Assembly: GCA_002706085.1 (NCBI GenBank)
Contig: PAJO01000043.1
Span: 1 to 36,347, forward strand
From: Alcanivoracaceae bacterium
GTDB taxonomy: Bacteria > Pseudomonadota > Gammaproteobacteria > Pseudomonadales > Alcanivoracaceae
Reading direction: 5' to 3'
Length of the DNA stretch: 36,347 bases
Within the stretch, counting starts at the first letter, position 1, and the number at the start of each line of letters is the position of its first letter. The notes beneath the pieces were generated by a model, which had not been told where the DNA came from, did no database searches, and was given only the letters and a program-made list of their open reading frames with translations. This document shows, one piece after another, positions 3,400 to 28,899 of the stretch. The translations under genes were made by a program, and so were the position numbers.

Positions 3400-4107
3400 T
3401 TACTGCGATATCCACTGCAGGAATTCGCGGCGTTCTTCCGCCGTGGCCTGATTCCATTGTGCTTTCAGGGTATCCAGGTAGCTTGCCGGTGGCGCCTGGG
3501 GGGCCACGGAGGAGGTCTTCTCCGTGGCCGCGGCTGCCGATGCGCCAGCGGTAACACCGGCTGCGGCTTGAGGTGCAACGCTGTTGGTGGTCGCGGTGGT
3601 CACTTCTTCACCGGTGATGGGCGCCATGAAGCCGCGCTTCAGGACCAGCTTGCTTTCTTCTGCCGCTACTTTCTCTCCGCTGACGGGGTTTTCTACCCAG
3701 CCATGAAAGCTGTCTTCCATGGCACGTGCTTGTGCCACATCCTGTGGTTTTTCGAAACCGAGAATCCACATGTCACCGGGTTTGCCATCGACCACGAAAT
3801 TGGCAGGATTGGTTTTCACAATCTCGTGATTGTCTGCATCCAGCTGCCAGAGTTCCTTGTAATAGGCCAGAATCTCGTAGCGTCCCGGTGCAAACTTCAG
3901 ATCCTTGTATTCAGTCGAAAAGAAGGTGTTAACGCCTTCGACTTCTTCGCCATTGATGGTGAATACTTCCAGTTCGCTGGGGACTCGCACGGTGACGACA
4001 TTGCTGTCAGATCGGGCGGGGCCATCGTACAGCTGGACGACCGGACTACGGGCGCAGGCGGCCAGCAGCAGGGTGAGCAAGGCAAGGATGGATACGCGGA
4101 ACAACAT
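3400..4107 (-). CDS. YccT-like (DUF2057) lipoprotein
   Basis: A 235-residue predicted lipoprotein. The signal peptide MLFRVSILALLTLLLAAC ends in a lipobox with Cys18. The following domain (about residues 22-150), with INGEEVEGVNTFF, FAPGRYEILAYYKELW and GDMWILGFEKP, resembles the DUF2057/YccT family. An Ala/Thr-rich linker at about 165-205 leads to a short conserved tail (LDTLKAQWNQATAEERREFLQW). The role is unknown. The ATG at 4105-4107 has AGGAGA upstream and leads directly into the signal peptide. It is the last gene of a three-gene minus-strand group with the two small genes upstream. Confidence 0.8.
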   Translation of the reverse strand: MLFRVSILALLTLLLAACARSPVVQLYDGPARSDSNVVTVRVPSELEVFTINGEEVEGVNTFFSTEYKDLKFAPGRYEILAYYKELWQLDADNHEIVKTNPANFVVDGKPGDMWILGFEKPQDVAQARAMEDSFHGWVENPVSGEKVAAEESKLVLKRGFMAPITGEEVTTATTNSVAPQAAAGVTAGASAAAATEKTSSVAPQAPPASYLDTLKAQWNQATAEERREFLQWISQ

Positions 4108-4127
4108 GACTTCTCCTGATTGGCAGA

Positions 4128-4144
4128 CCCGCCAGTCTGGCGGG
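4128..4144 (-). other. Intercistronic perfect hairpin upstream of the YccT-like gene
   Basis: CCCGCCAG (4128-4135) and CTGGCGGG (4137-4144) form a perfect 8-bp palindrome around one base. It sits about 11 bases upstream of the AGGAGA ribosome-binding site of the lipoprotein gene and has no T-run, so processing or attenuation is more likely than termination. Confidence 0.5.
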
Positions 4145-4172
4145 CGAAGATGGCAAAGCGGTGACAGGGATA

Positions 4173-4511
4173 TCAGAAGCCCCAACTGTCAACGCGGGCG
4201 GGCGCCACATCCCGGTTCAGGGCGGTGAGCCCTCTGGCACAACGGATTATCCACCAGACAGTGGCAAAGACCATCACCAGCCAGCCAATGAAGGCCAGAG
4301 TGGTGATGCCGGCGATAACGGAATAGAGCAACCCGATCCAGAACGTTCGGTACTGGAAACGAAAATGTTCGCGTAATGGCGGTGGGGCATCACCGGCATT
4401 CAGGTGGGCCAGTATCACGCCGGCAATGGCGGTAATGCCGCCGGTGATCAATCCCACCAGATGCAGCACATAAATGATGCGGACCAGGCTGGTCTGGCTG
4501 GTGTCGGACAT
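4173..4511 (-). CDS. Small integral membrane protein (DUF4870-like)
   Basis: A 112-residue protein with three hydrophobic segments at about residues 10-35, 55-75 and 75-95, and a REHFRFQYRTFWIGLL segment typical of DUF4870/COG3671 membrane proteins. Function unknown. Its ATG overlaps the TGA of the upstream Kunitz lipoprotein gene by one base (TGATG), so the two are probably translationally coupled. Confidence 0.8.
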   Translation of the reverse strand: MSDTSQTSLVRIIYVLHLVGLITGGITAIAGVILAHLNAGDAPPPLREHFRFQYRTFWIGLLYSVIAGITTLAFIGWLVMVFATVWWIIRCARGLTALNRDVAPARVDSWGF

Positions 4512-4810
4512 CAGGGAGCCTCTTTGACCGGTGCTTTCGCCGGGGCGCTGGTGGCCGTGGCGTTACAGGTGCTGACGCAGGCGTCCATGGTCTCGAACGG
4601 TACGCTACCCTGGCAGCCTCCCCAGATAAAGCTCTGGCAGGCGCCTGTGTCGGCATCAAAGTAGTAGCGGGGAATGGAGGCCTTGCACATGCCTGATTCC
4701 GGGGGTTGGTAGCAGGCGTCTGGTAGCTTGGCCGTGCCGGGTTCGTTGCCGTTCTGGCATCCTGCCAGCAGGGTAAACGCGAGAATGAAGGGGAAAATCA
4801 GGTATCGCAT
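4511..4810 (-). CDS. Lipoprotein with a single Kunitz/BPTI domain
   Basis: A 99-residue protein. Residues 1-17 are a signal peptide ending in LLAG before the lipidated Cys18. The rest is almost entirely a Kunitz/BPTI domain: Cys33, 42, 58, 66, 78 and 82, with 8, 15, 7, 11 and 3 residues between them, against 8-15-7-12-3 in bovine BPTI. The family core PRYYFD and FIWGGCQG is present. The residue after the second cysteine, which is P1 in BPTI, is Lys43, predicting inhibition of trypsin-like serine proteases. An Ala/Pro/Lys tail follows. It is coupled to the downstream membrane protein gene. A role in defence against exogenous proteases is inference. Confidence 0.85.
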   Translation of the reverse strand: MRYLIFPFILAFTLLAGCQNGNEPGTAKLPDACYQPPESGMCKASIPRYYFDADTGACQSFIWGGCQGSVPFETMDACVSTCNATATSAPAKAPVKEAP

Positions 4811-4957
4811 GGCTGTTCCTTGCCTCTTGCGAGGTCAGCAGGATAAAAATATGACGACTACTTTACCGGACTCTGCGACTGGCGGTAACCGGTTCATGTT
4901 ATCCACCAGCATTGTCCTTTATGCTGGTTTTACCGAAATACGACAGTGGGGTGGCGG

Positions 4958-5641
4958 GTGAAACGGGTCGCAGCAGGTTTCTATGTGATGGGCTTGTTCG
5001 TAACGGGCCTGTGCTGGGCGCAGGATACCCAGTACATGTTTTTGCAGGCTGGCAAGCTGCAGCTGAGTGATGCGGATACGACGGTGACGGCCAACGGCAC
5101 GACCCTGAGCGGGGACTATGATGATCTGCCTTTCTTTACTGGCGGGGTGCAGAAGATTCTCGGAGGTTCTGATCGTGTTCGCTATGGCTATGAAGGCGGT
5201 GCGGTGATCAGCTGGCAGAATGATTCAGTGAGCTACTCCGGCGTGGTGAATGGCGGGGCTACGGTCAATATCAAGGTTGAGAATGAAATGTTCCTGTTTG
5301 GCACCATGCTGGGGGGGTATGGCGATATCAACTTTGGTGACCGGGCGAGGCTGTTCTTGTCGGGTGGCCCCATGTTGCTGATGGCCTCCTTGAAGCAGGA
5401 CCAGGAAAAGCCCTACCCCCAGCCGTTGTCGTCGGCGGTAGTGATCAATGGCGATGAGCGTGATTTCAGCTTCGGTTATGGTGCCTATGCCTCACTGGGG
5501 CTGATCTTCTCGGTGGGCGGCAAATCCGAATTTGGGCTGGTGGTACGCGAGCAGGCCGTTGAGATGGATTTTAATGATGCCATCGCGGACTTTCCCTACG
5601 ATGGTACCCAGTACATGCTCAGCTTTGGTTATCGGATGTAG
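4958..5641 (+). CDS. Outer-membrane beta-barrel protein
   Basis: About 227 residues. A signal peptide (MKRVAAGFYVMGLFVTGLCWAQ) is followed by alternating amphipathic strands and a C-terminal aromatic-rich strand ending YMLSFGYRM, as expected for a small outer-membrane barrel. No closer family is recognised. The start is uncertain: GTG 4958 gives a typical charged signal-peptide N-terminus and has a GGGG run six bases upstream; GTG 4946 is the longer alternative and ATG 4988 a shorter one. Divergent from the Kunitz lipoprotein gene. Confidence 0.72.
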   Translation: MKRVAAGFYVMGLFVTGLCWAQDTQYMFLQAGKLQLSDADTTVTANGTTLSGDYDDLPFFTGGVQKILGGSDRVRYGYEGGAVISWQNDSVSYSGVVNGGATVNIKVENEMFLFGTMLGGYGDINFGDRARLFLSGGPMLLMASLKQDQEKPYPQPLSSAVVINGDERDFSFGYGAYASLGLIFSVGGKSEFGLVVREQAVEMDFNDAIADFPYDGTQYMLSFGYRM

Positions 5642-8119: not shown

Positions 8120-9484
8120 TTATCGCTTCTCGATCGTCACCGGCAATCCATCTTTGGGCATGATGAGGGGCACTTGCTGGGTGGGCAGTTCATAGCCTTC
8201 TTTCACGCTTACCCGGTAGCGCTGCAGGAAGTGGAACAGGAAGGTTTTGGTCTGCAGCTCGGCAAAATTCAGCCCCAGACATTTGTGATGGCCACCGCCG
8301 AAGGGGACCCACTGATAAAAGTGTTTCTTGTGTTCTGCCCGGTCGTCACTGAAACGTTCCGGATCAAAGCGGAGCGGTTGGCTCCAGTATTCTTCCATGT
8401 AATGGGTGTACAGGGTGGAGATGTTCACCAGCGTATTTTTCGGCAGTACGTAGCCCTGGTGTTCCACCTCTTTCACCGTACGGCGAGGGAAAGTGGTGAG
8501 CGGGGGGCGCATACGCAGTGTTTCGCGGAATACCCAGCCGGTTTTTTCCAGTTTGCCCAGATCATCATAATCCAGCGCGGTTTTGCCCAAGCCCTTCATT
8601 TCTTCTACCAGGATTTCCTGCCACTCGGGGTGTTTGGCGAGCATGTAGATGATCGAGCACAGGGTGCTGGTGGTGGTGTCGTGGGCGGCGAACAACAGGA
8701 AGATCATGTGGTTCATCACGTCCCGATCGGTCAGGCCGCCTTCTTCATCCGCCGCCTTACACAGTTCGCTGAAGAAATCCGGGGTGTCGCTGTTGCGTTT
8801 TTGCGGGATCAAACCGGTGACAAAGTCTTCCAGATAGCGGCGCCCTTTCATGCCCCGGTGCCACAACAGGCCGGGGATTTTCAGCCGGACCACGGCCAGT
8901 GAGGCTTCGGTGGTATCAATGAACGACTGGTTGACCTTGTCGGATTCCGGGCCCATTTCCAGACCGAAGAAGATCTGCGCCCCCACATCCAGCAGCAGTG
9001 TCTTGATGTGCTCCAGAAATTTCAGTTCTGTGCCGACGGGCCAGTCCTGAATTTCCGTGCCGATGTGTTGGTTCATGCGATCCAGGTAACTGGCCAGTGC
9101 CGGTTTCTTGAAGGCCTGCTGCATGATGCGGCGATGGAACTTGTGGTCGGCAAAGTCCCGCAGCATCAACCCATCGGTAAACAGCTTTTCCAGGATGGGG
9201 TTCCATGCCGCCCGGCTGGAAAACGCATGCTCCGGGTCCTTGAGGACAAACTCGTTGGCGTCTGGGCCAAGCAGGGTGACGCCCCGCTGAAACAACACTG
9301 AGCCCTTGGACACCAGACCGTATTTCTCGGCCCGCTCGGTCACCAGCTTGTGGTAGTCCTTCAGGAAAGGCACGGTGGCGCCAAGCAACGGCCAGCCGTA
9401 GTCCCCGGGGATATTATCCAGCTTTCGCTGGGGCATACGTGGTAGTTGCGCTGCCTCTTGCTGGGCGGCTTCCATACGGTTCAT
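8120..9484 (-). CDS. Cytochrome P450
   Basis: A 454-residue soluble P450. The oxygen-binding I-helix motif AAHDTT is at residues 266-271, the K-helix ExxR motif as ETLR at 321-324, and the heme-binding loop FGGGHHKCLG has the axial Cys402. The N-terminal PLLGATVPFLKDYHKL and heme-loop style look more like CYP26/CYP51/CYP120-type P450s than the alkane-hydroxylating CYP153 family, so the substrate is open; sterol, terpenoid or fatty chain are all possible. No ferredoxin or reductase gene is adjacent. ATG 9482-9484 has GGGAG upstream. It reads divergently from moaB. Confidence 0.92.
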   Translation of the reverse strand: MNRMEAAQQEAAQLPRMPQRKLDNIPGDYGWPLLGATVPFLKDYHKLVTERAEKYGLVSKGSVLFQRGVTLLGPDANEFVLKDPEHAFSSRAAWNPILEKLFTDGLMLRDFADHKFHRRIMQQAFKKPALASYLDRMNQHIGTEIQDWPVGTELKFLEHIKTLLLDVGAQIFFGLEMGPESDKVNQSFIDTTEASLAVVRLKIPGLLWHRGMKGRRYLEDFVTGLIPQKRNSDTPDFFSELCKAADEEGGLTDRDVMNHMIFLLFAAHDTTTSTLCSIIYMLAKHPEWQEILVEEMKGLGKTALDYDDLGKLEKTGWVFRETLRMRPPLTTFPRRTVKEVEHQGYVLPKNTLVNISTLYTHYMEEYWSQPLRFDPERFSDDRAEHKKHFYQWVPFGGGHHKCLGLNFAELQTKTFLFHFLQRYRVSVKEGYELPTQQVPLIMPKDGLPVTIEKR

Positions 9485-10151: not shown

Positions 10152-11389
10152 GCCAGATTCCTGCGCAGCTGATGCCGGTAGAGGACGCGTTGTCTCGGCT
10201 GCTGGACAGCATGCGCCCGTTTTCTGCCGTGCAGGATCTGGTGTTGGGTGAAACCCGGGGGCAGTACCTGGCCTCGGATGTGGCGGCACGGGTGGATGTG
10301 CCGGCGTTTGATAATGCCGCGGTCGATGGTGTGGCGTTGCGCTATCAGGATCTGGCTGAGCCCGGCCTGACATTACCGATGCCCTTGCGGGTGGCGGCGG
10401 GTGATCCGCCCTGCACCCTGATGCCTGGTCAGGTGGCCCGTATCTTTACGGGCGCGCCGGTGCCCACTGGCGCAGACACGGTGTTGATGCAGGAAGACTG
10501 CGAGATCGCCGATGGCCGGGTGCGGTTGCCAGGCAGGGATGGCGTCACCCAAGGTCAGAACATTCGTCCTGCGGGTCAGGATGCCCGTCGTGACGCCATT
10601 GTGATTGAGCGCGGCCAGCGCCTGACGCCCCAGGCTGTCGGCTTGATTGCGTCGGTGGGGGTGCCCCAGGTAACGGTGAGTGCACCGCGGGTTCTGATCC
10701 TGACCAGTGGTGATGAATTGCAGCGTGCCGATGAGTCGCCGCTACCGGGCAAGATTTACGACAGTAACGGCCCTCAGCTGGAACAGCTGGTGGTGCAAAG
10801 CGGTTTCCCTTCGGTACAGCGGGAGCACTTGCCCGATGATCCCGCGATTATCAGCGATACCCTGACCCGCTATCTTACTGATGCCAGTCAGCGCCCGGAC
10901 GTGATCATTTCAACCGGCGGGGTATCGGTGGGGGAGGAAGATCACCTGCGTGCGGTGCTGGAGGCCAAGGGCTCGCTGGACTTCTGGCGGTTGGCAATCA
11001 AACCGGGCAAGCCGTTTACCTTTGGCCAGGTCGATGGGATTCCTTTCTTTGGGTTGCCGGGTAACCCCTCTGCCGTGCTGGTCTGTTACCTGACGCTGGT
11101 CTTGCCGGCACTGCGTCGTGCCTGTGGGGCGCAAACGGTGCTGCCTGCGCCGCAGAGATTACCGGTGAATTTTTCAGTTAATAAACCGGGCAAGCGTCAG
11201 GAATATTTGCGTGTGCGGTGCATGCAGGAAGACGGTGAGTTGCGATTGCAGCAACACCCCAATCAAAGCTCAGGCATGCTCAGTTCTGCCGTGTGGGCGG
11301 ATGGCCTGGCAGTGGTGCCGGTGGGGCGTACCGTGTCCCCCGGAGATCGGTTGGCGTATTTCTCGTTTGCCGACTTGCTGGGCGGCTAA
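10148..11389 (+). CDS. moeA: Molybdopterin molybdenumtransferase MoeA
   Basis: A 413-residue MoeA that ligates molybdate to adenylylated molybdopterin. Recognisable segments are FDNAAVDGVAL in domain I, IFTGAPVPTGADTVLMQED in the beta-rich domain, GKIYDSNG, STGGVSVGEEDH and FGLPGNPSAVLVCY of the MogA-like domain, and a C-terminal domain ending near GDRLAYFSFADLL. The ATG at 10148 overlaps the moaB stop by four bases. An upstream in-frame extension lies inside moaB and is not real. Confidence 0.95.
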   Translation: MSQIPAQLMPVEDALSRLLDSMRPFSAVQDLVLGETRGQYLASDVAARVDVPAFDNAAVDGVALRYQDLAEPGLTLPMPLRVAAGDPPCTLMPGQVARIFTGAPVPTGADTVLMQEDCEIADGRVRLPGRDGVTQGQNIRPAGQDARRDAIVIERGQRLTPQAVGLIASVGVPQVTVSAPRVLILTSGDELQRADESPLPGKIYDSNGPQLEQLVVQSGFPSVQREHLPDDPAIISDTLTRYLTDASQRPDVIISTGGVSVGEEDHLRAVLEAKGSLDFWRLAIKPGKPFTFGQVDGIPFFGLPGNPSAVLVCYLTLVLPALRRACGAQTVLPAPQRLPVNFSVNKPGKRQEYLRVRCMQEDGELRLQQHPNQSSGMLSSAVWADGLAVVPVGRTVSPGDRLAYFSFADLLGG

Positions 11390-11394
11390 TTTAT

Positions 11395-11696
11395 GGTTCA
11401 TCGCGGATTTGCGGGAAAAGCCTGATTGACTCCTCCCTGCTTGCCGTAGGAGCGTCGCTCGCGGCGCGATAGCCCAAGCCTGGATCAAAGCATAGAGGGC
11501 ACAGAGACCACTGAGAAAAGACGCTCTTGAGCTCTGTGATAAACATTGCTTTTTTAACGGTTCTGGTTATCGCGCCGCGACCGAGCGCAGCGAAGGAACG
11601 CCCGCAGGGCGGCCCCGAAGGGGTGAGCGGAGCGAATAACCGACGCTCCTACAGCATGGGGCGTGGCGAGCCATTCCCTAAAATCTGCGATGAACC
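11395..11696. repeat. REPIN-like composite repeat, copy B, with nested insertion
   Basis: This occupies most of the 354-base gap between moeA and the PhnA-like gene; no gene is seen in it. The outer arms GGTTCATCGCGGATTT (11395-11410) and AAATCTGCGATGAACC (11681-11696) are inverted with one mismatch. The left GTAG-headed arm is at 11445-11470. The right arm is split into 11569-11580 and 11641-11652 by about 60 extra bases. Confidence 0.78.
11581..11640. repeat. 60-bp GC-rich insertion inside REPIN-like copy B
   Basis: The insertion splits the right arm of copy B. It contains compact hairpins CGCCCGCAGGGCG and CCCCGAAGGGG. It looks like a second type of small repeat that landed in the first one. 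Confidence 0.6.
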
Positions 11697-18171: not shown

Positions 18172-18488
18172 GCGGCGTCCTGTGATTCTTGTTGTGCTTT
18201 TAGAGTCTAGGGGAATGGGGGCTAAAAGTGTGCCTCTGTGGCGCGGAATTCTGCTGCGTTTGAGTAACCCCGGGCTCTGATTCGGGTCGGTTTTATCTGT
18301 TCTATATCCGAACGCTGGGACGGCTTTTGTGGAGAAGATGGAGAGAGTGGTTCGGAGGGGGAGACGGAAGGAATTTCCTGGGCTTTTTTTAACTCTATAA
18401 AAATCAGTGGCTTGCTGTTTTTGGGTGATGAATTTGAGGTGCCTTGGAGGGTCGCGGTATCCGGGGTCAAAGGGGCCATTTAGCCGAG
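18172..18488. other. Gene-free, locally AT-rich intergenic region
   Basis: Together with the module 1 promoter this makes a 422-base gap between divergent genes. I see no convincing gene. It has T-rich stretches (18384-18390, 18418-18423) and a TATAAA at 18396-18401 without a matching -35. A small RNA cannot be excluded. Confidence 0.5.
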
Positions 18489-18540
18489 TTGAAGCCGAAC
18501 AAGCATTCGATCTAATGTTGCCACCAGAAAATGTAACAGT
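18489..18540 (+). promoter_or_regulatory. Module 1 promoter with TetR-type operator
   Basis: TTGAAG (18489-18494), a 16-base spacer and TCTAAT (18511-18516; 5 of 6 to TATAAT) form a good sigma-70 promoter. The spacer holds CCGAACAAGCATTCG (18495-18509), a CGAA-N6-TTCG inverted repeat. A further ATGTAACAGT lies at 18531-18540. The same arrangement occurs upstream of module 2 at 22936-22986. Confidence 0.65.
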
Positions 18541-18593
18541 TATCGGGGTGGCTATCAGATGGTGCTGCCCCCTGCCATCGACAGGTGACCCAG

Positions 18594-19523
18594 ATGCAGA
18601 CCGCAACCATTCATCAGTACGTGCCGAAAACCGCCAAGCCCCGTGCCGAAGTGCCGATCCGTCATATGGATTTCCAGTTTTCAGCCGACGGGGTGGATAC
18701 CCAGTTTTTCCGCAACACCGAGCTGGCCACAGCAATCTTCGAGGCGCTGTCCATCTTCCTGACTTTTGGCGAAGACCTGGTCATCGACACCGCCCGTTAT
18801 CACCGCCAGTTCGTGAAGGACCCGGAGCTGAAACGGCAGGTAACATCCCTGATTGGCCAGGAAGCGATCCACTCGAAAATGCATAACGAGTTCAATGATG
18901 CGCTGGCCAAGCATCGTTTCCCGGTGGGCTTCTACCGCTTTCTGGCAGACAACGTCTTTGAATACGGCTTCAAGCGGTTGCCCAATCGCATGCAGCTGTC
19001 CCTGATGGCGGGCATCGAGCATTTCACCGCGGTGCTGTCGGAATACATGATGAAGCACGAAGATATTTTCTTTGAAACGGAAGATGAAAAGCAGCGTGCC
19101 CTGTGGATGTGGCACATGCTGGAAGAATCCGAGCACAAGGACATTGCCTACGACGTTTTCCAGGAGTTGTCCGGTAACTATGCGTTGCGGATATCCGGTT
19201 TTGCGTTGGCCACCTTCACCATCATGTTCCTGGTGCCGCTGGGCGGTGTCTTTATCCCGATTTTTCGCAACCCGCTAAACATGGTCCGCCCGCGCTACTG
19301 GAAGGATGTGCGGCACAGCCTTGCCTTGTTGGCGGGGCCGAAGGATGGCGTTTTTGGCAGCACCATGAATCACATCATGGATTACCTGCGTCCAGACTTT
19401 CACCCGAATGATCACGACACCTCAGCGTATCTGGAGTACTACAAGGAAAAGCTGCTGAACCCGGAAACCGGTTTGCTGACCCCTTACCTGACCAAGGAAT
19501 TCGTCCCGCCGGTGCGGGCCTGA
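18594..19523 (+). CDS. Putative di-iron 'metal-dependent hydrolase' (PF10118/COG3687 type)
   Basis: A 309-residue protein of the family usually annotated as predicted metal-dependent hydrolase. I see a full ferritin-like di-iron ligand pattern: Glu60 (FGED), Glu90-x-x-His93 (QEAIH), Glu142 (GIEH) and Glu178-x-x-His181 (EESEH). This suggests an oxygen-activating di-iron enzyme, possibly a hydroxylase, rather than a hydrolase; that is inference. A hydrophobic stretch at about 204-225 may contact a membrane or lipid. ATG 18594 has AGGTGA five bases upstream, so I prefer it to GTG 18585. It is the first gene of module 1. Confidence 0.82.
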   Translation: MQTATIHQYVPKTAKPRAEVPIRHMDFQFSADGVDTQFFRNTELATAIFEALSIFLTFGEDLVIDTARYHRQFVKDPELKRQVTSLIGQEAIHSKMHNEFNDALAKHRFPVGFYRFLADNVFEYGFKRLPNRMQLSLMAGIEHFTAVLSEYMMKHEDIFFETEDEKQRALWMWHMLEESEHKDIAYDVFQELSGNYALRISGFALATFTIMFLVPLGGVFIPIFRNPLNMVRPRYWKDVRHSLALLAGPKDGVFGSTMNHIMDYLRPDFHPNDHDTSAYLEYYKEKLLNPETGLLTPYLTKEFVPPVRA

Positions 19524-19557
19524 TTTCCCCTGAACACGCCTTCTTGAGTGGAACATT

Positions 19558-20394
19558 ATGTTGAAGCTGATCAAACAACGCTTTTCCCGGCCCAGCACTA
19601 ACGCCCGGGCGGTAGTCACCGGCGCAGGCAGTGGCATTGGTCGCAGCTTTGCCCTGGAGCTGGCTCGCCGCGGTGGTGCGGTGGTGTGTGCGGATCTGAA
19701 TCTGGCCAATGCCGAAGAAACGGTTGCCATGATTCGGGAATTGGGTGCGCAGGGGTGGGCGGTTGCCTGTGATGTGGGCAAGGCAAAGCAGGTGGAAGCG
19801 CTGGCGAAGGAGGCCGAGACCTTGCTGGGCGGCCCGGCGACTCTGGTGATCAACAATGCCGGCGTCGGCATTGGTGGCAAGTTTGATGAGTTGTCCCTGC
19901 AGGACTGGAAATGGGTAATGGATGTGAATCTGTGGGGTGTGGTCCACGGTTGCCATTATTTCGTACCCGGCCTGAAAAAGCAGGGTGGCGGGGCCATCAT
20001 CAATGTGGCGTCGGCGGCATCCTTTACGGCTGCGCCGGAAATGAGCGCCTATAACGTCACCAAGGCCGGGGTGCGCGCCCTGTCCGAAACCCTGTATGCG
20101 GAACTGAAAAAGGACAACATTCGCGTCAATGTGCTGTGCCCGACCCTGGTGCCCACCAACATCATCAAGGATGGCCGTATCCCGGAGCGGTATTCCAGAT
20201 TGGCAGACCATGCGTTGATGAACTACGCGATGACTACCAGTGACAGTGTGGCAAAACTGACCCTGAACCGGCTCGATAAAGGGGAGCTGTACACCACGCC
20301 GCAGGTAGACGCGAAGCTGTTCTGGTTGATGAAGCGTGCTTCGCCGGATCTGTATGCCCGATTCCTGGGCTTCTCTTACCGGTTTCTTGGCTGA
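19558..20394 (+). CDS. SDR family oxidoreductase, module 1
   Basis: A 278-residue classical SDR. TGAGSGIG at about residues 21-28, NNAGVG near 100, the catalytic serine in VASAAS and the YNVTK motif near 164 are present. It is clearly a paralogue of the module 2 SDR at 23049, with long shared stretches such as RGGAVVCAD, LVINNAGVG and YNVTKAGV. It probably oxidises a secondary alcohol to the ketone used by the BVMO downstream; that is inference from context. The ATG follows GAGTGGA. The stop overlaps an ATG (TGATG) at 20394, but the BVMO probably starts 60 bases later. Confidence 0.9.
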   Translation: MLKLIKQRFSRPSTNARAVVTGAGSGIGRSFALELARRGGAVVCADLNLANAEETVAMIRELGAQGWAVACDVGKAKQVEALAKEAETLLGGPATLVINNAGVGIGGKFDELSLQDWKWVMDVNLWGVVHGCHYFVPGLKKQGGGAIINVASAASFTAAPEMSAYNVTKAGVRALSETLYAELKKDNIRVNVLCPTLVPTNIIKDGRIPERYSRLADHALMNYAMTTSDSVAKLTLNRLDKGELYTTPQVDAKLFWLMKRASPDLYARFLGFSYRFLG

Positions 20395-20453
20395 TGCGGC
20401 CGGACTTGAACCGCGAACCACCCGAACACGAAAAGAAAAGAGGCAGAGACCCT

Positions 20454-21977
20454 ATGGCTGAGAACAAGGCTCAGAACAAGGCAGCGTCCCCGGTGTCGCC
20501 TGTTTACGATTCCCTGATTGTCGGCGCCGGCATTTCCGGCCTGGCGGCAGCGATCAAGCTGCGTAAAGAAGGCTATACCGACTTCAAGATTATCGAGAAG
20601 GCCAGCCAGGTCGGCGGTACCTGGCGTGAGAATACCTATCCCGGTTGCGGTTGTGATGTGCCGTCGTCACTGTATTCCTATTCGTTTGCGTTGAGCAGCA
20701 AATGGAGTCGCCTGTTTGCCAAGCAGCCGGAAATCCTCGCCTACCTGAAAGAGGTGAGCGACGATTTTGGCATCACCCCGCTGATTGAATTCAACACGGA
20801 CCTGGAACAGGCGCGCTGGGATGACAGCCGTGACCTGTGGGTGCTCAATACCAGCAAGGGGGAATACCTGGCCCGCACGGTGGTGTTTGCCACCGGGCCG
20901 ATCACCGAATCGCAGATTCCCTCGCTGCCGGGGCTGGAGACCTTCAAGGGCGAAATGTTCCATTCTGCCAAGTGGAACCATGATTATGATCTGACCGGAA
21001 AACGGGTTGCGGTGATTGGCACCGGTGCGTCTGCGATCCAGTTTGTGCCGGAAATTCAGCCCAGGGTAAAAGAGCTGTTCGTGTTTCAGCGCACGGCCCC
21101 CTGGGTGCTGCCCAAGCCGGACCTGCCGTTGAGTGAGACCAGCAAAAGCGTGATCGAGCGGTTACCCGCGATCCAGCACGGCTGGCGCAAAGCGGTAGCG
21201 GGCTCCCTGAATGTGATCAACTTCGGGCTGCGCAATCCGAACGTGCTCAAGCCGGTGAGCAGTGCCGCCAGGCAGCTGCTCAGGCTGCAGGTGCATGACC
21301 CGGTGTTGCGCAAGGCCGTGACACCGGACTTCACCCTGGGCTGCAAGCGGATTCTGTTTGCCAACAACTATTATCCCGCCTTGCAGGCGGAAAATACGAG
21401 TCTGATTCCCCATGGTCTGGTGGAGGTCGACGGCAACACGGTGATTGCCGCCAACGGTGAACGCCATGAGGTCGATGTGATTATCTGGGGTACCGGTTTT
21501 GATGTGTCTCATCCGCCGATAGGCCGCAAGGTCTTCAACGCCAAGGGTGAGCGCCTGTCCGACCTGTGGAAAGACAGCTCGCCGGAAGCTTATCTGGGCG
21601 CAGCTCTGGCCGATGTGCCCAATGCCTTCCTGGTGCTGGGGCCTAACGTGTTGGTGTATGACTCTTTCATTGTGCTGGCCGAGGCTCAGCTGGATTACAT
21701 CATCGATGGGCTGAAAAAAATCCGTGATCGCGGGATCAGTCGCCTTACCATTCGCCCTTCGGTGATCGAACAGCACAACCAGAAAGTGCAGAAACACCTG
21801 AAGGGGACGGTGTTCAACAGTGGTGGCTGCAAGAGCTACTACCTGGACCAGAATGGCCGAAATTTTGCCGCCTGGCCCTGGTCACTGAAAGCCCTGAAAA
21901 AGCGCCTGTCCCGTTTCCGGCTCAAGGATTACGAGGTGGTGTATCAGCAACAGAAGGCCAACCGCAAGGCGGCGTGA
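20454..21977 (+). CDS. Flavin monooxygenase, Baeyer-Villiger type, module 1
   Basis: A 507-residue FAD/NADPH monooxygenase. The FAD motif GAGISG is at 24-29, GGTWRENTYPG from 54, and the NADPH motif GTGASA at 189-194. The BVMO fingerprint FxGxxxHxxxW(P/D) is present at 164-175 as FKGEMFHSAKWN, with Asn in place of the last Pro/Asp. It would insert oxygen next to a ketone to give an ester or lactone, or oxidise a heteroatom. ATG 20454 (MAENK) is the likely start; ATG 20394, overlapping the SDR stop, would add 20 polar residues. A strong terminator follows. Confidence 0.9.
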   Translation: MAENKAQNKAASPVSPVYDSLIVGAGISGLAAAIKLRKEGYTDFKIIEKASQVGGTWRENTYPGCGCDVPSSLYSYSFALSSKWSRLFAKQPEILAYLKEVSDDFGITPLIEFNTDLEQARWDDSRDLWVLNTSKGEYLARTVVFATGPITESQIPSLPGLETFKGEMFHSAKWNHDYDLTGKRVAVIGTGASAIQFVPEIQPRVKELFVFQRTAPWVLPKPDLPLSETSKSVIERLPAIQHGWRKAVAGSLNVINFGLRNPNVLKPVSSAARQLLRLQVHDPVLRKAVTPDFTLGCKRILFANNYYPALQAENTSLIPHGLVEVDGNTVIAANGERHEVDVIIWGTGFDVSHPPIGRKVFNAKGERLSDLWKDSSPEAYLGAALADVPNAFLVLGPNVLVYDSFIVLAEAQLDYIIDGLKKIRDRGISRLTIRPSVIEQHNQKVQKHLKGTVFNSGGCKSYYLDQNGRNFAAWPWSLKALKKRLSRFRLKDYEVVYQQQKANRKAA

Positions 21978-21989
21978 CACTGTTGCAGG

Positions 21990-22014
21990 AAGGGGCTGAT
22001 TCAGCCCCTTTTTT
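21990..22014 (+). terminator. Rho-independent terminator of module 1
   Basis: GGGGCTG/CAGCCCC stem (21992-21998 and 22002-22008) with a 3-base loop, followed directly by TTTTTT. It lies 13 bases after the BVMO stop. Confidence 0.88.
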
Positions 22015-22016
22015 CT

Positions 22017-22280
22017 GGTTCATCGCGGGTTTCCGGGAAAAGCCGAATTTCATTCCCTCCCTTGCCGTAGGAGCGTCGCTGGCGGCGCGATCCCAGACCA
22101 GGATCAAAAGCATTTTAATCACAGAGGGCACAGGGTTCACTGAGGAGGACGGTTTTCCTCTGTGGATCCTATACTCTCTGTGGTAAATAGTCTTTAACGA
22201 CGTGGGTTATCGCGCCGCCAGCGACGCTCCTACGGAAGGGGGCTTTTCTGTAGACGATTCCCGTTAATCCGCGATGAGCC
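22017..22280. repeat. REPIN-like composite repeat, copy C
   Basis: This fills the 333-base convergent gap between the module 1 BVMO and the tetR gene, which has no other gene. The two GTAG-headed 26-base arms (22066-22091 and 22209-22234) are perfect inverted copies. Outer arms GGTTCATCGCGG (from 22017) and CCGCGATGAGCC (to 22280) are also inverted. Inside, CACAGAGGGCACAG and CTCTGTGG segments recur as in copies A, B and D. Confidence 0.82.
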
Positions 22281-22310
22281 TTTTTTCTTTCCCCTGTTAC
22301 TGCGTGTTCT

Positions 22311-22922
22311 TTATTCCTTCTGGCTGAGTGTGTACTCGGCGTAGCCACTGAGCGTATCCCCCAGCACCGCCACCAGTTCCTCAAAGGTCTGGGTGGGGTT
22401 TCGGGCGGACAGGTGACGAATCACCGTGTAGATGCCGCCGTTGATATAGAAATAGGCGAGGCCGGGAATGTTGGGCAGTTTCAGCAGTTCCGGGTGGTGC
22501 ATCAGATACTGGGTAAAGAAGTCCATCAACGTGCGGGAGATAGGGGCCTGATAGATCACCATGTCCATGCTGAACGCGTGGCGGGCAAAACGCAGGTAGA
22601 GCTCGTTGTTCTCTTCCAGAAAGTCGCGGAAGTTGAAGAGCAGGGTATGGATGGCACCGCGAATATCCATGCGCACCATCTTTGGCACCAGTGGATGAAT
22701 CATGGCCACGGTGTCTTCCACAAAACGCTCCGATGCGGCCTGCACGATGGCGTTCTTGTCGTCGAAATATTCGTACAGTGAACCCACGCCGATCCCTGCC
22801 CGCTCAGCAATGTGACGGGCCGTAATACCCGCTGGTCCCTGGTCGGCAATGGTCAGCAGAGTGGCCTCAATGATGGCGTCTACAGTGGCTTTGGAGCGTT
22901 GTTGTTTGGGTTTTCTGGCCAT
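22311..22922 (-). CDS. TetR family transcriptional regulator
   Basis: A 203-residue TetR-type repressor. The helix-turn-helix occupies about residues 33-58 (ITARHIAERAGIGVGSLYEYF), followed by a helical ligand-binding domain of about 140 residues. It is divergent from the module 2 SDR with 126 bases between starts. It is the obvious candidate to bind the CCGAACRAGCATTCG sequence found in both module promoters, one of which lies in this gap; self-regulation is likely. The inducer is unknown but may be a lipid-like substrate of the modules. The ATG at 22920-22922 is well supported. Confidence 0.9.
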   Translation of the reverse strand: MARKPKQQRSKATVDAIIEATLLTIADQGPAGITARHIAERAGIGVGSLYEYFDDKNAIVQAASERFVEDTVAMIHPLVPKMVRMDIRGAIHTLLFNFRDFLEENNELYLRFARHAFSMDMVIYQAPISRTLMDFFTQYLMHHPELLKLPNIPGLAYFYINGGIYTVIRHLSARNPTQTFEELVAVLGDTLSGYAEYTLSQKE

Positions 22923-22935
22923 GGGGTAATCCGAA

Positions 22936-22986
22936 TTGTATCCGAACGAGCATTCGCTTTATTGTTACATCAGTGAATGTAACAGT
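22936..22986 (+). promoter_or_regulatory. Module 2 promoter with TetR-type operators
   Basis: TTGTAT (22936-22941), a 16-base spacer and TTTATT (22958-22963) form a moderate promoter. The spacer contains CCGAACGAGCATTCG (22942-22956), in exactly the place it holds in the module 1 promoter. Just downstream GTTACAT (22964-22970) and ATGTAAC (22977-22983) make a perfect 7-bp inverted repeat; only its right half is kept at module 1. Confidence 0.62.
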
Positions 22987-23048
22987 AAACGTTTGGCTGT
23001 GCCATCGGCCCCGTATCGGCGGCAGCCTTCCAACGAGGATCGGACACC

Positions 23049-23882
23049 ATGTTCGGTAAACAAGACAAACTGATTAACCACGCCATGGCCGTAGTCACCG
23101 GCGCGGGCAGCGGCATTGGCCGGGCGTTTGCAGAAGCGCTGGCGGCGCGCGGCGGCGCGGTGGTGTGTGCCGATATCAACCTGGAGACTGCTCAGCAAAC
23201 GGTGGACCGGATTACCGCGTCTGGCGGACGGGCGTGGGCGCTGCGTTGTGATGTCAGTGTGCGTGCAGAGGTGGAGGCGCTGGCGGAGCAGGCCCAGGCG
23301 CTGTTACCTGAACCGATTAGTCTGGTCATCAATAACGCCGGCGTGGGTGTGGGTGGCAAGAACATCGGCGAGATTTCCCTGGAAGATTGGGAATGGACCA
23401 TGGGCATCAACCTGTGGGGCGTGATCTACGGCTGTCACGTTTTCGCACCGTTGCTGAAGCAGCAGGGGCGGGGCGGGATTATCAACGTGGCGTCCTCGGC
23501 CAGCTTTGCCGCCGCGCCACTGATGGGGCCCTACAACGTGACCAAGGCGGGGGTGCTGGCCCTGTCCGAGACGCTGGCCGCGGAAACTGCTGGCACCGGC
23601 GTCAATGTGACGGTGCTGTGTCCCACGGTGGTCAACACCAACATCTTTAGCGCGGGTCGCATTCATGGCGGCGTGCCGCCGGTGCTCAATCGCATTATCG
23701 AACTCACGGGCGTGTCTGCCGAGGGGGTAGCGGATACCACCCTCAAGGCACTGGCCCGCGGCCAGCTGCATGTGCTGCCCCAGTTCGATGCGCGCATGAT
23801 CTGGCGCGCCAAACGTTTGCTGCCCGCAACCTATACCCGCGGCGCCGGACTGCTCAGCCGTCTGGCCGCTGCCAAACTTTAA
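23049..23882 (+). CDS. SDR family oxidoreductase, module 2
   Basis: A 277-residue classical SDR paralogous to the module 1 enzyme. It has TGAGSGIG near residues 18-25, LVINNAGVG near 95, the catalytic serine in NVASSAS and YNVTK near 161. GAGGATCGG lies upstream of ATG 23049. As first gene of module 2 it follows the TetR-type operator. The substrate is not readable; ketone/alcohol interconversion alongside the BVMO is inferred. Confidence 0.9.
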   Translation: MFGKQDKLINHAMAVVTGAGSGIGRAFAEALAARGGAVVCADINLETAQQTVDRITASGGRAWALRCDVSVRAEVEALAEQAQALLPEPISLVINNAGVGVGGKNIGEISLEDWEWTMGINLWGVIYGCHVFAPLLKQQGRGGIINVASSASFAAAPLMGPYNVTKAGVLALSETLAAETAGTGVNVTVLCPTVVNTNIFSAGRIHGGVPPVLNRIIELTGVSAEGVADTTLKALARGQLHVLPQFDARMIWRAKRLLPATYTRGAGLLSRLAAAKL

Positions 23883-23913
23883 TTTTTCACCCTGTACCCG
23901 GGAGGAATGCATC

Positions 23914-24846
23914 ATGGCTTCCATCGACCTCGACAAAATGCTTGCCAAAATCAAGAGCACCCAGTGGGCCCTGTCAGACATTGACTGGGATGCCCCGGGG
24001 GCGGAACTGATTACCGAAGAGCAATGGCCAAAACTGAAAGAGTTCATGGCCGATCTTATGTGGATTGAACATGTGGGGGCTCGGGCTTTTGCGGCGTTGG
24101 CCAAGAAAGCCCCAACGGATACCTTGCGAGAAATCTACAGTTACTTTCATGCAGAAGAGCAGCGACACGCCAATGCCGAGATGGCCTTGATGCGTCGCTG
24201 GGGCATGCTGGAAGGGGATGAGATTCCGGAGCCCAACGTCAACCTGCGCATCATCATCGAGTGGCTGGATCGTTTTGCTGATGAGATGCCTGTATACGTA
24301 CTCGGCACTGTGGTGCCCATGCTTGAAATCGCGCTGGACGGTGCCCTGTGTACTTTCCTGCTCGAGACCGTGAAAGACCCGGTTTGCCACCAGGCATTCG
24401 AGAAGATCAACGATGATGAGTCCCGCCATCTGGGCGTGGGTTTCACCGTGATGGAAATGCAGGGCCGCAGTGCGTCATACATCAAGATGGTGCAAATGAT
24501 GGCACGAGTGATGGATCCCCGTCTGATTCTGGGTATTGCCTCTTATATGCCGCTGCTCAACAAGATGCGCGATAACGTGATTGCGATGGGCCTGCCAGAA
24601 GAAAAACTCTACAAGGCCATGCAGAAGTTTGAACGTATTGGTGGGCGAACCGAAGAAGGGCGTCGTAACCCCTGGTTCCAGTTGATCAAGCAGCACGGCC
24701 GCTGGGTGACCAATCGTAGCAACAAGGTGTACCACGTGCCGGTGGATGCGCTGGTGAAGATTACTGGCATGGTGCCCCGGAAAGCCTTGCCTGCGGTGCC
24801 TTCATGGGTGAAGGAGCTTACCTACGAACCCACCGCAACACGTTAA
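23914..24846 (+). CDS. Ferritin-like putative di-iron oxygenase, module 2
   Basis: A 310-residue helical protein not clearly related to the module 1 di-iron protein in sequence. The ligand pattern is complete: Glu52 (WIEH), Glu82-x-x-His85 (EEQRH), Glu138 (MLEIALDG) and Glu169-x-x-His172 (DESRH). This points to a ferritin-like di-iron oxidase or hydroxylase; I do not recognise a named subfamily. GGAGG lies nine bases upstream of ATG 23914. It sits between the SDR and the BVMO, so the three probably act in one pathway. Confidence 0.82.
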   Translation: MASIDLDKMLAKIKSTQWALSDIDWDAPGAELITEEQWPKLKEFMADLMWIEHVGARAFAALAKKAPTDTLREIYSYFHAEEQRHANAEMALMRRWGMLEGDEIPEPNVNLRIIIEWLDRFADEMPVYVLGTVVPMLEIALDGALCTFLLETVKDPVCHQAFEKINDDESRHLGVGFTVMEMQGRSASYIKMVQMMARVMDPRLILGIASYMPLLNKMRDNVIAMGLPEEKLYKAMQKFERIGGRTEEGRRNPWFQLIKQHGRWVTNRSNKVYHVPVDALVKITGMVPRKALPAVPSWVKELTYEPTATR

Positions 24847-24864
24847 TCCTGTTGTCAGCATAGC

Positions 24865-24884
24865 CGCCCGGCGGGAGCCGGGCG
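24865..24884 (+). other. Perfect intercistronic hairpin before the second BVMO
   Basis: CGCCCGGC (24865-24872), loop GGGA, GCCGGGCG (24877-24884): a perfect 8-bp stem with no T-run. It may stabilise or process the module 2 mRNA between the di-iron gene and the BVMO. Confidence 0.55.
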
Positions 24885-24914
24885 ACACGACCCTGTAGCA
24901 CGAGTTTGAACGTT

Positions 24915-26483
24915 ATGAGCACGACCGAAGATTCCAAAAAAATGGCTAAACCCAAGGCACCACGCAAGAAAGCGGCTGCCGCATGCAAGACGACGGCCCG
25001 AAGAAAGACGGCAGCAAGAAAAAAAGCGCCAGAAAAACCCCAGTCGGTCCTTATCGTCGGCGCCGGGTTTGCCGGCTTGGGCATGGCCATTCGCTTGAAG
25101 CAAGCCGGTATCGAAGACTTCATTATTCTGGAGCGTGGTAACGCGGTAGGGGGTACCTGGCGTGACAACCAATATCCGGGTGCGGCCTGTGATATTCCCT
25201 CGAATCTGTATTCATATTCCTTCGCGCCGAATCCCAACTGGTCGCGCAGTTTCTCCGGCAGCGAAGAAATCCTCGACTACGTGCATCACCTGGTCGCGGA
25301 GTTCGGCTTGGAAAAGCACATCCGTTTCGAGCAGAACGTGGCCGAACTACGCTTCGACGAGACGAAAGGCATCTGGACGGCGACCACGGATAAGGATGTT
25401 GTCTTCACCGGCCGTGCGGCGGTGATGGCTCAAGGGCCGCTGGCCAATTGCAGCTTTCCGGCGATTACAGGCATTGAGGATTTCAAAGGGAAAAAAATCC
25501 ACAGCGCCCGCTGGGATCATGATTACGACTTTTCCGGCAAGAATGTGGCCGTGGTGGGCACCGGTGCCAGCGGGATCCAGATCATTCCCGAGTTGGTCAA
25601 GGTTGCCAAACACGTGAAGGTGTTCCAGCGGACGCCGGGTTGGGTGATGCCACGGCCTGACTTTTCCACGCCGGAATGGAACAAGTTGTTGTTCCGCAAG
25701 GTGCCTGCCAGTCAGCAGGCCATGCGTGAACTGCTGTATTGGAGTCATGAAAGCATGGCCCTGGCGGTGATCTGGAATTCGCCGCTGACGCGAATCGCGG
25801 AGCGCATTGGCAAGTGGCATCTTCGCCGTCAGGTAAAAGACCGCTGGTTGCGTCGTCAGTTGACCCCGGATTTCACCATCGGTTGCAAACGGGTACTGGT
25901 TTCCAACGATTACTACCCGGCTTTGCAGAAAGATAATGCGAAACTGATTACCTGGCCTATTGCCCGAATCAGCGAAGAGGGTATTCGGACAGTAGAAGGC
26001 ATTGAACATCAGGTGGATTGCATCGTGTTTGCCACAGGCTTTGATGTGAGCCACTCCGGCACGCCGTTCCCGGTGCTGGGACGGGGTGGCCGCGTCATGG
26101 GCGATGACTGGAAAGGTGGCGCCCAGGCCTATAAGAGCATCAATGTGTCCGGCTATCCGAATCTGTTCCTGACCTTCGGCCCCAATTCGGGACCGGGCCA
26201 TAACTCTGCACTGGTGTATATGGAGTCGCAGCTGGAATATGCCCTGAAAGGCATCCGCAAGATTGTGGGCGAAGATCTGAAGGTGCTGGATGTGAGAGAA
26301 GATGCCCAGCAGCGTTTTAACAAGGGCATCCAGAAGCGGCTGGCGAAAACCAACTGGAACTCCGGCTGCAAGAGCTGGTACCTCACTGAAGACGGGTTCA
26401 ATGCCACCATGTATCCGGGGTTTGCGACCCAGTACGCCGCCCAGATGTCGGAATTCAAAGAAGAAGATTACCAAACCGCCTGA
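24915..26483 (+). CDS. Flavin monooxygenase, Baeyer-Villiger type, module 2
   Basis: A 522-residue BVMO. The FAD motif GAGFAG is at 49-54, GGTWRDNQYPG from 79, a complete fingerprint FKGKKIHSARWD at 190-201, and the second GTGASG near 213. The first 42 residues form an unusual basic tail (15 Lys/Arg and 10 Ala), with strings such as KPKAPRKKAAAACK, resembling histone H1-like or AlgP-type repeats. The start ATG 24915 has only a weak ribosome-binding site, and an internal ATG at 24942 would shorten the tail by nine residues. It ends module 2, before a strong terminator. Confidence 0.9.
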   Translation: MSTTEDSKKMAKPKAPRKKAAAACKTTARRKTAARKKAPEKPQSVLIVGAGFAGLGMAIRLKQAGIEDFIILERGNAVGGTWRDNQYPGAACDIPSNLYSYSFAPNPNWSRSFSGSEEILDYVHHLVAEFGLEKHIRFEQNVAELRFDETKGIWTATTDKDVVFTGRAAVMAQGPLANCSFPAITGIEDFKGKKIHSARWDHDYDFSGKNVAVVGTGASGIQIIPELVKVAKHVKVFQRTPGWVMPRPDFSTPEWNKLLFRKVPASQQAMRELLYWSHESMALAVIWNSPLTRIAERIGKWHLRRQVKDRWLRRQLTPDFTIGCKRVLVSNDYYPALQKDNAKLITWPIARISEEGIRTVEGIEHQVDCIVFATGFDVSHSGTPFPVLGRGGRVMGDDWKGGAQAYKSINVSGYPNLFLTFGPNSGPGHNSALVYMESQLEYALKGIRKIVGEDLKVLDVREDAQQRFNKGIQKRLAKTNWNSGCKSWYLTEDGFNATMYPGFATQYAAQMSEFKEEDYQTA

Positions 26484-26528
26484 TGAGAATTGGGTAGGGA
26501 GTGGAGTGCTCCCCTGGTTTTTCCGGTG

Positions 26529-26556
26529 AACGCGGGCCTTTGGCCCGCGTTTTTTT
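26529..26556 (+). terminator. Rho-independent terminator of module 2
   Basis: CGCGGGCC (26531-26538) and GGCCCGCG (26542-26549) form a perfect 8-bp stem (10 bp with flanking AA/TT) with a TTT loop, followed by TTTTTTT. Confidence 0.92.
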
Positions 26557-26651
26557 ATGGTGGATCGCGGGTTGGGGCAATCGGGTTTTCTTCTCCTCCG
26601 CGATGCCTCTTGTGTGTTGCCAGACATGGCGTACCGAAGTGAGCCAAAAAA

Positions 26652-28731: not shown

Positions 28732-28899
28732 CGTAGGCGCGTCGCTCGCGGCGCGATTTAAGACCAGGATCAAAAGCGTTTTCACCACAGAGGGCGCAGA
28801 GTTCACGGAGAAACCCCCGTTTTCCTTCCTGAGCACTGTGCCCTCTTTGGTGGATCTGTATTTAACAACGGCTATCGTGCCGCGAGCGACGCGCCTACG
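28732..28899. repeat. REPIN-like composite repeat, copy D
   Basis: Inside a 400-base convergent gap (28652-29051) with no gene. The arms 28732-28757 and 28874-28899 are inverted with one mismatch. Both carry the matching change GGAGCG to GGCGCG (CGCTCC to CGCGCC) relative to copies A-C, so pairing is kept. Internal CACAGAGGGCGCAGAG and TGCCCTCTTTGG segments are shared with the other copies. Confidence 0.8.

Follow-up and report, generated by a model that had tools for sequence, protein, structure and literature searches.

Two ferritin-like protein, dehydrogenase and Baeyer-Villiger-type operons with a common promoter element in an Alcanivoracaceae genome

Two neighboring operons on one contig of an Alcanivoracaceae bacterium (GenBank assembly GCA_002706085.1, contig PAJO01000043.1) each encode a ferritin-like protein, a short-chain dehydrogenase/reductase (SDR) and a flavoprotein related to Baeyer-Villiger monooxygenases (BVMOs), with a TetR-family gene between them. 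The locus raises the question of whether the two operons form one regulatory unit and what such a unit would oxidize. We analyzed the contig, C43 of a 3.78 Mb genome, over its full 36,347 nt, referred to here as the window. Module 1 encodes, in order, the PF10118 ferritin-like protein DI1, SDR1 and the BVMO-like flavoprotein BV1; module 2 encodes SDR2, the unclassified ferritin-like protein DI2 and the BVMO BV2, and is divergent from the TetR gene. All seven genes are intact open frames in the window (Table 1) and, with their Pfam assignments, they confirm an initial annotation that described two di-iron/SDR/BVMO modules around a TetR gene. Its further statements on relatedness also held: SDR1 and SDR2 are 54% identical and BV1 and BV2 40%, while DI1 and DI2 have no meaningful similarity (best E 1.2) and belong to different families. 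From the comparisons described below, we consider it reasonably likely that the locus is a TetR-derepressed two-operon regulon oxidizing hydrophobic secondary alcohols or ketones to esters, with the di-iron proteins as candidate upstream oxygenases.

Conservation of the modules and of a shared promoter

At the level of the order, a DI2 relative was found at E ≤1e-6 in 23 of 293 genomes; in 19 of these, the window genome among them, the identity is ≥67%. A scan of approximately 85,000 species genomes returned 497 stretches encoding a DI2 relative, from which the best 80 loci were kept. These derive from Alcanivorax, Alloalcanivorax, Marinobacter, Acinetobacter, Salinisphaera, Nevskia, Solimonas, Panacagrimonas, Perlucidibaca, Burkholderiales and others, with the taxon labels of metagenome-assembled genomes (MAGs) taken as written; the carriers of DI2 are largely hydrocarbon-degrading genera. 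The four most widespread families near DI2 are BVMO, DI2 itself, TetR and SDR, the neighbor counts being lower bounds from a crude open reading frame (ORF) caller. Next, in 24 loci, comes a family without a Pfam match whose example overlaps SDR1 in antisense orientation; a flavin monooxygenase (FMO) taken for AlmA-type is near DI2 in 13 loci, and families present in ≤11 loci resemble local synteny. The full TetR–SDR–DI2–BVMO set is present in 49 of the 80 loci, another 15 lack the SDR only, and the remaining 16 lack TetR or more, some of them at contig edges. The SDR precedes DI2 in 59 loci. DI2 is followed directly by a full BVMO in 74 loci and by a short BVMO-derived protein in the five Acinetobacter loci, and is thus linked to a BVMO or its derivative in 79 of 79 evaluable loci, the 80th ending at a contig edge. 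In locus L198, a MAG contig labeled Alcanivorax, two tandem DI2 matches (both 67%) precede one BVMO.

Module 1 accompanies module 2 in part of the genomes examined. In 50 named genomes drawn, non-randomly, from the 80 loci, a DI1 orthologue was detected in 19 (18 at ≥72% identity, one at 59%), and module 1 and DI2 are adjacent on one contig in 4 of these 19. The initial annotation had held that its proposal would fail if the gene sets were not conserved together in relatives; the counts given here are the outcome of that test. Its description of two parallel modules likewise stands for gene content, but the modules are not duplicates, SDR2 is often missing, and in 6 of the 80 loci a PF10118 gene is part of the module 2 operon or immediately precedes it, lying either between the SDR and DI2 or directly before DI2 (L160, L178, L183 and L193) or just before the SDR (L203 and L209). 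Recent tandem duplication of one module was rejected because, in quick trees, SDR1 groups with the SDR of another gene set of this genome, on contig C39 (support 97), apart from SDR2, and BV1 groups with a paralogue on contig C48 (support 91), apart from BV2; the tree program flags long branches where BV1 joins the C48 paralogue. Most SDR2 copies form their own clade (support 92, with the Salinisphaera copy outside), as do the BV2 copies (support 100). The modules were probably assembled separately and then brought under one operator.

When aligned, the intergenic regions of TetR-linked operons contain a near-invariant block of TTGAAT, a palindrome (O1) in the spacer and TAnnnT, the −35 and −10 roles of the hexamers being assigned by inspection. 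O1 is a perfect palindrome in some species, such as TCCGAACAAATGTTCGGA in L062, and just 3′ of the block many species also carry O2, a second palindrome. The operator core CGAACNNGCATTCG occurs without mismatch only twice in the 3.78 Mb window genome, once at each module (18496 and 22943), with 13 one-mismatch sites elsewhere in that genome. We built a 61-nt sequence-only promoter model from 23 module 2 promoters, excluding the window and using no module 1 sequence; its matches at module 2 are partly by construction, but those at module 1 are not. When 16 genomes were scanned genome-wide, the model ranked the module 2 promoter first and the module 1 promoter second in all seven that hold both modules (E ≤6e-9 for both promoters, next match 1.6e-6 or weaker). 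In the 50 named genomes, which share several species with the 16, so that the two counts are not independent, there were 73 matches at E ≤1e-3, of which 65 are module 2 (46) or module 1 (19) promoters. Of the other eight, three (L287, L290 and G295) lie in front of a further DI2-type gene that has a TetR of its own, one is in front of a BVMO-like gene (L291), and one is next to a piece resembling BV1 (L289). The remaining three (L285, L288 and L292) have a GCGAAT variant of the operator, L285 and L288 beside a related TetR.

All 19 genomes with a DI1 orthologue have a model match 17–215 nt upstream of the DI1 match. As judged from contig positions and lengths, the two modules are more than 10 kb apart in 13 of these genomes and within 10 kb in four (G293, G297, G299 and G301), with two undecidable. 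Adjacency as the cause of the shared regulation was rejected because 13 of the 19 module pairs are more than 10 kb apart. The comparisons therefore strongly support co-regulation of the two modules, and the initial annotation, which had called them a co-regulated pair, is supported beyond adjacency, as one and the same promoter/operator precedes both modules, in this genome as well as in relatives that carry them at a distance from each other.

The presence of the element also follows that of the regulator. The TetR gene is the divergent neighbor of the DI2 operon in 65 of the 80 loci, and the protein has a TetR_N helix-turn-helix, as expected of a divergent repressor, with the conserved palindromic O1 in the divergent region. 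All 46 genomes with TetR beside DI2 have at least one model match, 23 of them having supplied the training promoters; in G336 the only match at that stringency is at module 1, and the module 2 site was recovered by nhmmer. Conversely, none of the 12 loci examined in genomes without a TetR orthologue of ≥40% identity has O1 (L153, L164, L182, L191, L203, L209, five Acinetobacter loci and module 1 of G109); L165, L167 and L184 were excluded from this count because their contigs end before the promoter.

A sigma-70 consensus scan of the window detected neither module promoter, finding 2 sites against 4.8 expected, and the sigma-70 and terminator consensus scans gave no clear excess over shuffled sequence. 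The assignment of the promoters thus rests on conservation rather than consensus. The initial annotation had given each module its own promoter and strong terminator; a promoter-like element and a hairpin are indeed present at each, but the promoters were missed by the consensus scan. The hairpin 3′ of module 1 is absent from the terminator scanner list and was identified by RNA folding.

O2 was rejected as a TetR operator, since it is missing in L067–L069 and L071 despite the presence of TetR and O1, and is kept in L129 (G109) and L182 without O1 or a TetR orthologue. Searching the window genome with ≤2 mismatches gave 6 O2 sites, one of them at module 2, three upstream of other genes and two elsewhere; a reversed control pattern likewise gave 6, so the case for O2 depends on where its sites lie. 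The three sites upstream of other genes precede two PF10118 genes and an FMO gene that we take to be AlmA-type (G000:C55:23554, C17:9194 and C35:38117), and may possibly mark a second, wider regulon. The AlmA-type gene is not among the O1 matches of either the core search or the promoter model. A related divergent TetR, 28–33% identical, is found at L275–L285 and L288 (e.g., G000:C23:31852) with the operator GCGAAT...ATTCGC in the same −35/−10 layout. The gene downstream of it in L283, the only one scanned, encodes an MPAB/Lcp-type oxygenase (PF09995), with similar starts in most of the others; L283–L285 also hold a cytochrome P450 and an SDR.

Ferritin-like proteins and their flavoprotein partners

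DI2 falls over no Pfam or NCBIfam cut-off, while DI1 is a clear member of PF10118. The ligand pattern E52, E82xxH85, E138, E169xxH172 of DI2 is invariant across 19 aligned sequences, and E60, E90xxH93, E142, E178xxH181 of DI1 across 18, some of them domain-only; the metal-ligand roles of these residues were read from the pattern. The AlphaFold2 model of DI2 is all-helical (pLDDT 79) and that of DI1 mostly helical (pLDDT 87.6), such that in both models four Glu and two His lie on a predicted helical bundle. A sequence search of solved structures returned nothing useful for either protein. Foldseek against the PDB placed R2lox (R2-like ligand-binding oxidase) first for DI2 (E 6.6e-4); for DI1 the best matches were R2lox and ribonucleotide reductase (RNR) R2, with the soluble methane monooxygenase (sMMO) hydroxylase lower, all at E 0.09 or worse. 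The 50 DI2 matches listed have 12–18% identity and query TM-scores of 0.38–0.60, and include aldehyde-deformylating oxygenase (ADO), one entry with palmitic acid bound. Given the ligand patterns, the helical models and the R2lox-first Foldseek results, DI1 and DI2 probably belong among the ferritin-like di-metal proteins, a class rich in oxygenases, and the di-iron label of the initial annotation holds at the level of motif and fold.

Both proteins share the four-Glu, two-His pattern with R2-like ligand-binding oxidases, CmlI, ADO and the sMMO hydroxylase and are related to them by predicted fold, DI1 weakly, but the identity of DI2 to these enzymes is low. PF10118 is described as a family of predicted metal-dependent hydrolases, yet the invariant residues and fold of DI1 resemble an O2-activating ferritin-like site, which suggests that the label is misleading. 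In the literature searched, one paper was found to name PF10118, and it concerns lanthipeptide proteases. DI2 is single-copy in the window genome, which holds 11 PF10118 matches and 12 FMO-like matches, one of the latter under cut-off.

A third set in the same genome, on contig C39 (L072, 8719–15609), consists of a TetR gene beside a PF10118–SDR–esterase (PF07859)–BVMO–FadL-type porin series. By its predicted gene functions, this set completes the expected alcohol-ketone-ester route and adds a PF10118 protein. Ester hydrolysis by PF10118 was considered unlikely because the C39 set holds both PF10118 and a separate esterase. By analogy, the window modules most likely run a C39-like route without an esterase of their own.

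The type I Baeyer-Villiger monooxygenase fingerprint is FxGxxxHxxxW[P/D]. BV2 matches it in full as FxGxxxHxxxWD (FKGKKIHSARWD). BV1 reads FxGxxxHxxxWN, deviating at the last position, and is therefore termed BVMO-like only. The nearest solved relatives of BV1 include steroid and phenylacetone monooxygenases, and cyclohexanone monooxygenase is also among those found for the two proteins. BV1 and BV2 are group B flavoproteins, as are the AlmA-type enzymes of long-chain alkane degraders, but fall outside the well-supported clade taken as AlmA-type.

The five Acinetobacter loci (L174, L179, L181, L186 and L192) encode an intact protein of 184–204 aa that begins 15–24 nt after DI2, at about 10950–11560. 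This protein aligns to the middle of BV2 and lacks the FAD domain; by inspection, the second nucleotide-binding motif is lost or degraded. Four of the five fragments are 66–88% identical to one another, with dN/dS of 0.07–0.13 in the three pairs with defined dS. The fifth, in L181, has diverged: it shows 32–36% identity, and two pairs, both saturated, give a dN/dS of about 0.2. For five of the ten pairs dS is undefined. That a non-catalytic remnant has been kept next to DI2 is a hint that DI2 and the BVMO are physical partners.

Proposed route and competing explanations

In the mechanism we favor, a TetR dimer would occupy O1 (ideal palindrome TCCGAACAnnTGTTCGGA) between the −35 and −10 elements of both operon promoters when inducer is absent, blocking both operons and its own gene through autoregulation. 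A lipophilic inducer would release TetR, and the derepressed operons would then supply a pair of SDRs, a pair of BVMO-type flavoenzymes and two di-iron proteins of ferritin-like type that are unrelated to each other. Most likely, the SDRs oxidize hydrophobic secondary alcohols to ketones and the BVMOs convert ketones to esters, with long-chain or branched aliphatics as the presumed substrate class. The di-iron proteins would be oxygenases that either supply the route through C-H oxidation or trim its products, each matched to the BVMO and substrate range of its own module. Upstream oxygenation is the most likely role for them, with accessory roles as the main rival.

The alcohol-ketone-ester order has reported or proposed precedents in aliphatic catabolism. 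Acinetobacter sp. NyZ410 is reported to degrade secondary alcohols by means of the sad cluster, which encodes SadC, the BVMO SadD and two esterases (PMC10045523, PMC12753306). In Thalassolituus oleivorans, the BVMO TOL_0709 is upregulated on n-C28, and a secondary alcohol-ketone-ester route with an esterase was proposed (PMC6304351); the accessible text mentions no di-iron partner or TetR regulon. AlmA-type flavin monooxygenase has also been reinterpreted recently as a BVMO acting on ketones rather than a hydroxylase (PMC12449030). The sad cluster, compared here by gene description, likewise combines a secondary-alcohol step with a BVMO, but the window modules have no esterase and instead one ferritin-like protein each and a shared TetR operator. 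The literature searched holds no description of the di-iron partners or the two-operon regulon, although subscription papers were mostly outside its reach and this absence is no proof. The initial annotation had suggested an undescribed oxidation system; this applies to the di-iron partners and the regulon, while the SDR–BVMO half is known from the sad cluster.

Several observations weigh against the proposed regulon. Of the two genomes in which the module distance is undecidable, G298 has both modules at contig ends in an orientation compatible with adjacency, and G340 has them near the ends of two short contigs. G343 encodes a 43% identical TetR elsewhere, yet its DI2 locus L172 lacks O1. 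Fourteen of the 50 genomes have no SDR2, namely 11 of the 19 with module 1 and 3 of the 31 without (Fisher p 0.0012 before a one-row correction; median p 0.25 over phylogenetically independent pairs); an explanation of this loss by SDR1 is suggestive but not significant once phylogeny is allowed for. The WN ending replaces W[P/D] in every BV1 orthologue printed, and the hydrolase name of PF10118 means that DI1 might not be an oxygenase. Neither module encodes an esterase, or a ferredoxin or reductase for a di-iron oxygenase. Soluble di-iron monooxygenases of the sMMO/propane type are encoded in operons with a hydroxylase, reductase and coupling protein, an arrangement that the window modules do not have, and a Pfam scan of ten recurrent DI2-neighbor families found no ferredoxin, ferredoxin reductase or coupling protein, with about fifteen rarer families left unscanned.

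The missing electron-transfer partner and the sad precedent both fit a shorter route, in which the modules act on ready-made secondary alcohols or ketones and the ferritin-like proteins are accessory rather than C-H hydroxylases, serving in O2 or metal handling, product oxidation or flavoenzyme stabilization. We regard this as possible but lean against it: the DI2–BVMO linkage is without exception in the evaluable loci, DI2 keeps a complete ligand pattern beyond a helper's need, and neither module has the esterase of the sad cluster. The same linkage, together with the fragment retained in Acinetobacter, could alternatively mean that DI2 and the BVMO form a single enzyme complex with its own chemistry, the BVMO being partly a scaffold or an NADPH/FAD reductase for the di-iron site. 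Operon linkage alone could account for their co-occurrence, however, the L181 fragment is diverged, and dS is undefined in half of the fragment pairs; we consider such a complex rather unlikely. TetR-controlled BVMOs of unknown natural substrate exist, such as EthA under EthR, and the TetR here could similarly sense a toxic ketone or antimicrobial that the operons inactivate. The presence of two SDRs and two di-iron proteins, the abundance of PF10118 and FMO matches in the genome and the hydrocarbon-degrading carrier genera argue for catabolism instead, and detoxification is very unlikely. As to the promoter, the hexamers flanking O1 and the recurrence of the layout at TetR loci with the GCGAAT variant would be consistent with a common sigma-factor or housekeeping element rather than a TetR operator; this is extremely improbable, given that O1 is palindromic, is specific genome-wide to these operons and is missing where the TetR orthologue is missing.

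Two uncharacterized ferritin-like families are tied to BVMO modules by operon linkage and a shared operator, and each module's probable iron enzyme is a testable candidate for the missing first step in the breakdown of oily compounds. Because specific genes, a regulator and an operator can be named, the question is open to knockouts and assays in Alcanivorax or Marinobacter. The analysis also provides a first genomic context for DI2, a protein without a Pfam model over cut-off. A more far-reaching combination, which we consider distinctly unlikely as a whole, would make DI2 the founder of a new family of soluble ferritin-like di-iron hydroxylases that function in physical association with a BVMO, and PF10118 a second family of this kind. 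Both would supply the metal-dependent enzymes that, in Alcanivorax, Marinobacter and their kin, initiate the subterminal oxidation of long-chain or branched hydrocarbons, a reaction that is now no longer attributed to AlmA or LadA, and the Acinetobacter BVMO would have shrunk to a non-catalytic subunit serving DI2.

Feature coordinates and neighboring elements

Table 1. Coordinates in the window of the genes and predicted regulatory features of the two modules.
Feature	Position	Strand	Remarks
Module 1 promoter/operator	18484..18542	+	promoter model match E 6.9e-11, second best site genome-wide
Module 1 −35 TTGAAG	18489-18494	+	hexamer assigned by inspection
Module 1 O1 core CGAACAAGCATTCG, within spacer	18496-18509	+	
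Module 1 −10 TAATGT	18513-18518	+	hexamer assigned by inspection
Module 1 O2, second palindrome-like element	18516-18538	+	
DI1, PF10118 'Metal_hydrol'	18594..19523	+	Pfam E 3.1e-66
SDR1, classical short-chain dehydrogenase	19558..20394	+	PF00106 E 4.3e-49
BV1, group B flavoprotein monooxygenase, BVMO-like	20454..21977 (ORF open from 20394)	+	PF00743 E 1.9e-18
Terminator-like hairpin 3′ of module 1	21986..22016	+	fold −18.4 kcal/mol for 21983-22018, T-run
TetR-family regulator, proposed repressor of both modules and itself	22311..22922	-	PF00440 (TetR_N) E 1.5e-11
Module 2 promoter/operator, also just upstream of tetR	22930..22989	+	promoter model match E 1.2e-15, best genome-wide
Module 2 −35 TTGTAT	22936-22941	+	hexamer assigned by inspection
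Module 2 O1 CGAACGAGCATTCG	22943-22956	+	
Module 2 −10 TATTGT	22960-22965	+	hexamer assigned by inspection
Module 2 O2 palindrome TGTTACATCAGTGAATGTAACA	22963-22984	+	
SDR2, classical short-chain dehydrogenase	23049..23882	+	PF00106 E 4e-47
DI2, unclassified ferritin-like protein	23914..24846	+	over no Pfam or NCBIfam cut-off
BV2, Baeyer-Villiger-type monooxygenase	24915..26483	+	PF00743 E 1.2e-22
Strong intrinsic-terminator-like hairpin 3′ of module 2	26528..26552	+	11 pairs, 8 GC, T-run; fold −21.6 kcal/mol for 26520-26560

The nearest named record fetched, Alcanivorax profundi MTEO17 (L130), has an identical gene layout, with a DI2 protein 100% identical to that of the window and DNA 90–99% identical over four aligned pieces. 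A plasmid-origin comparison of the window gave no match. Elements of ~167 bp resembling REP or MITE sequences lie at 22067–22233, 1779–1948 and 28733–28898, their ends being inverted copies of GTAGGAGCGTCGCTGGCGGCGCGAT, which has 7 window copies at ≤3 mismatches against 0 expected. The copy between BV1 and the TetR gene is probably mobile, since it sits within a 262-bp stretch missing in A. profundi L130. A probable cytochrome P450 gene, named by inspection, lies at 8120–9484 (-), its product being 44–48% identical to the P450 of L283–L285. Upstream of module 2 and near the AlmA-type gene, five Alcanivorax loci (L131 at 4063–4959, L132, L137, L138 and L142) encode a 298-aa family that, judged by its start, is perhaps an alpha/beta hydrolase.

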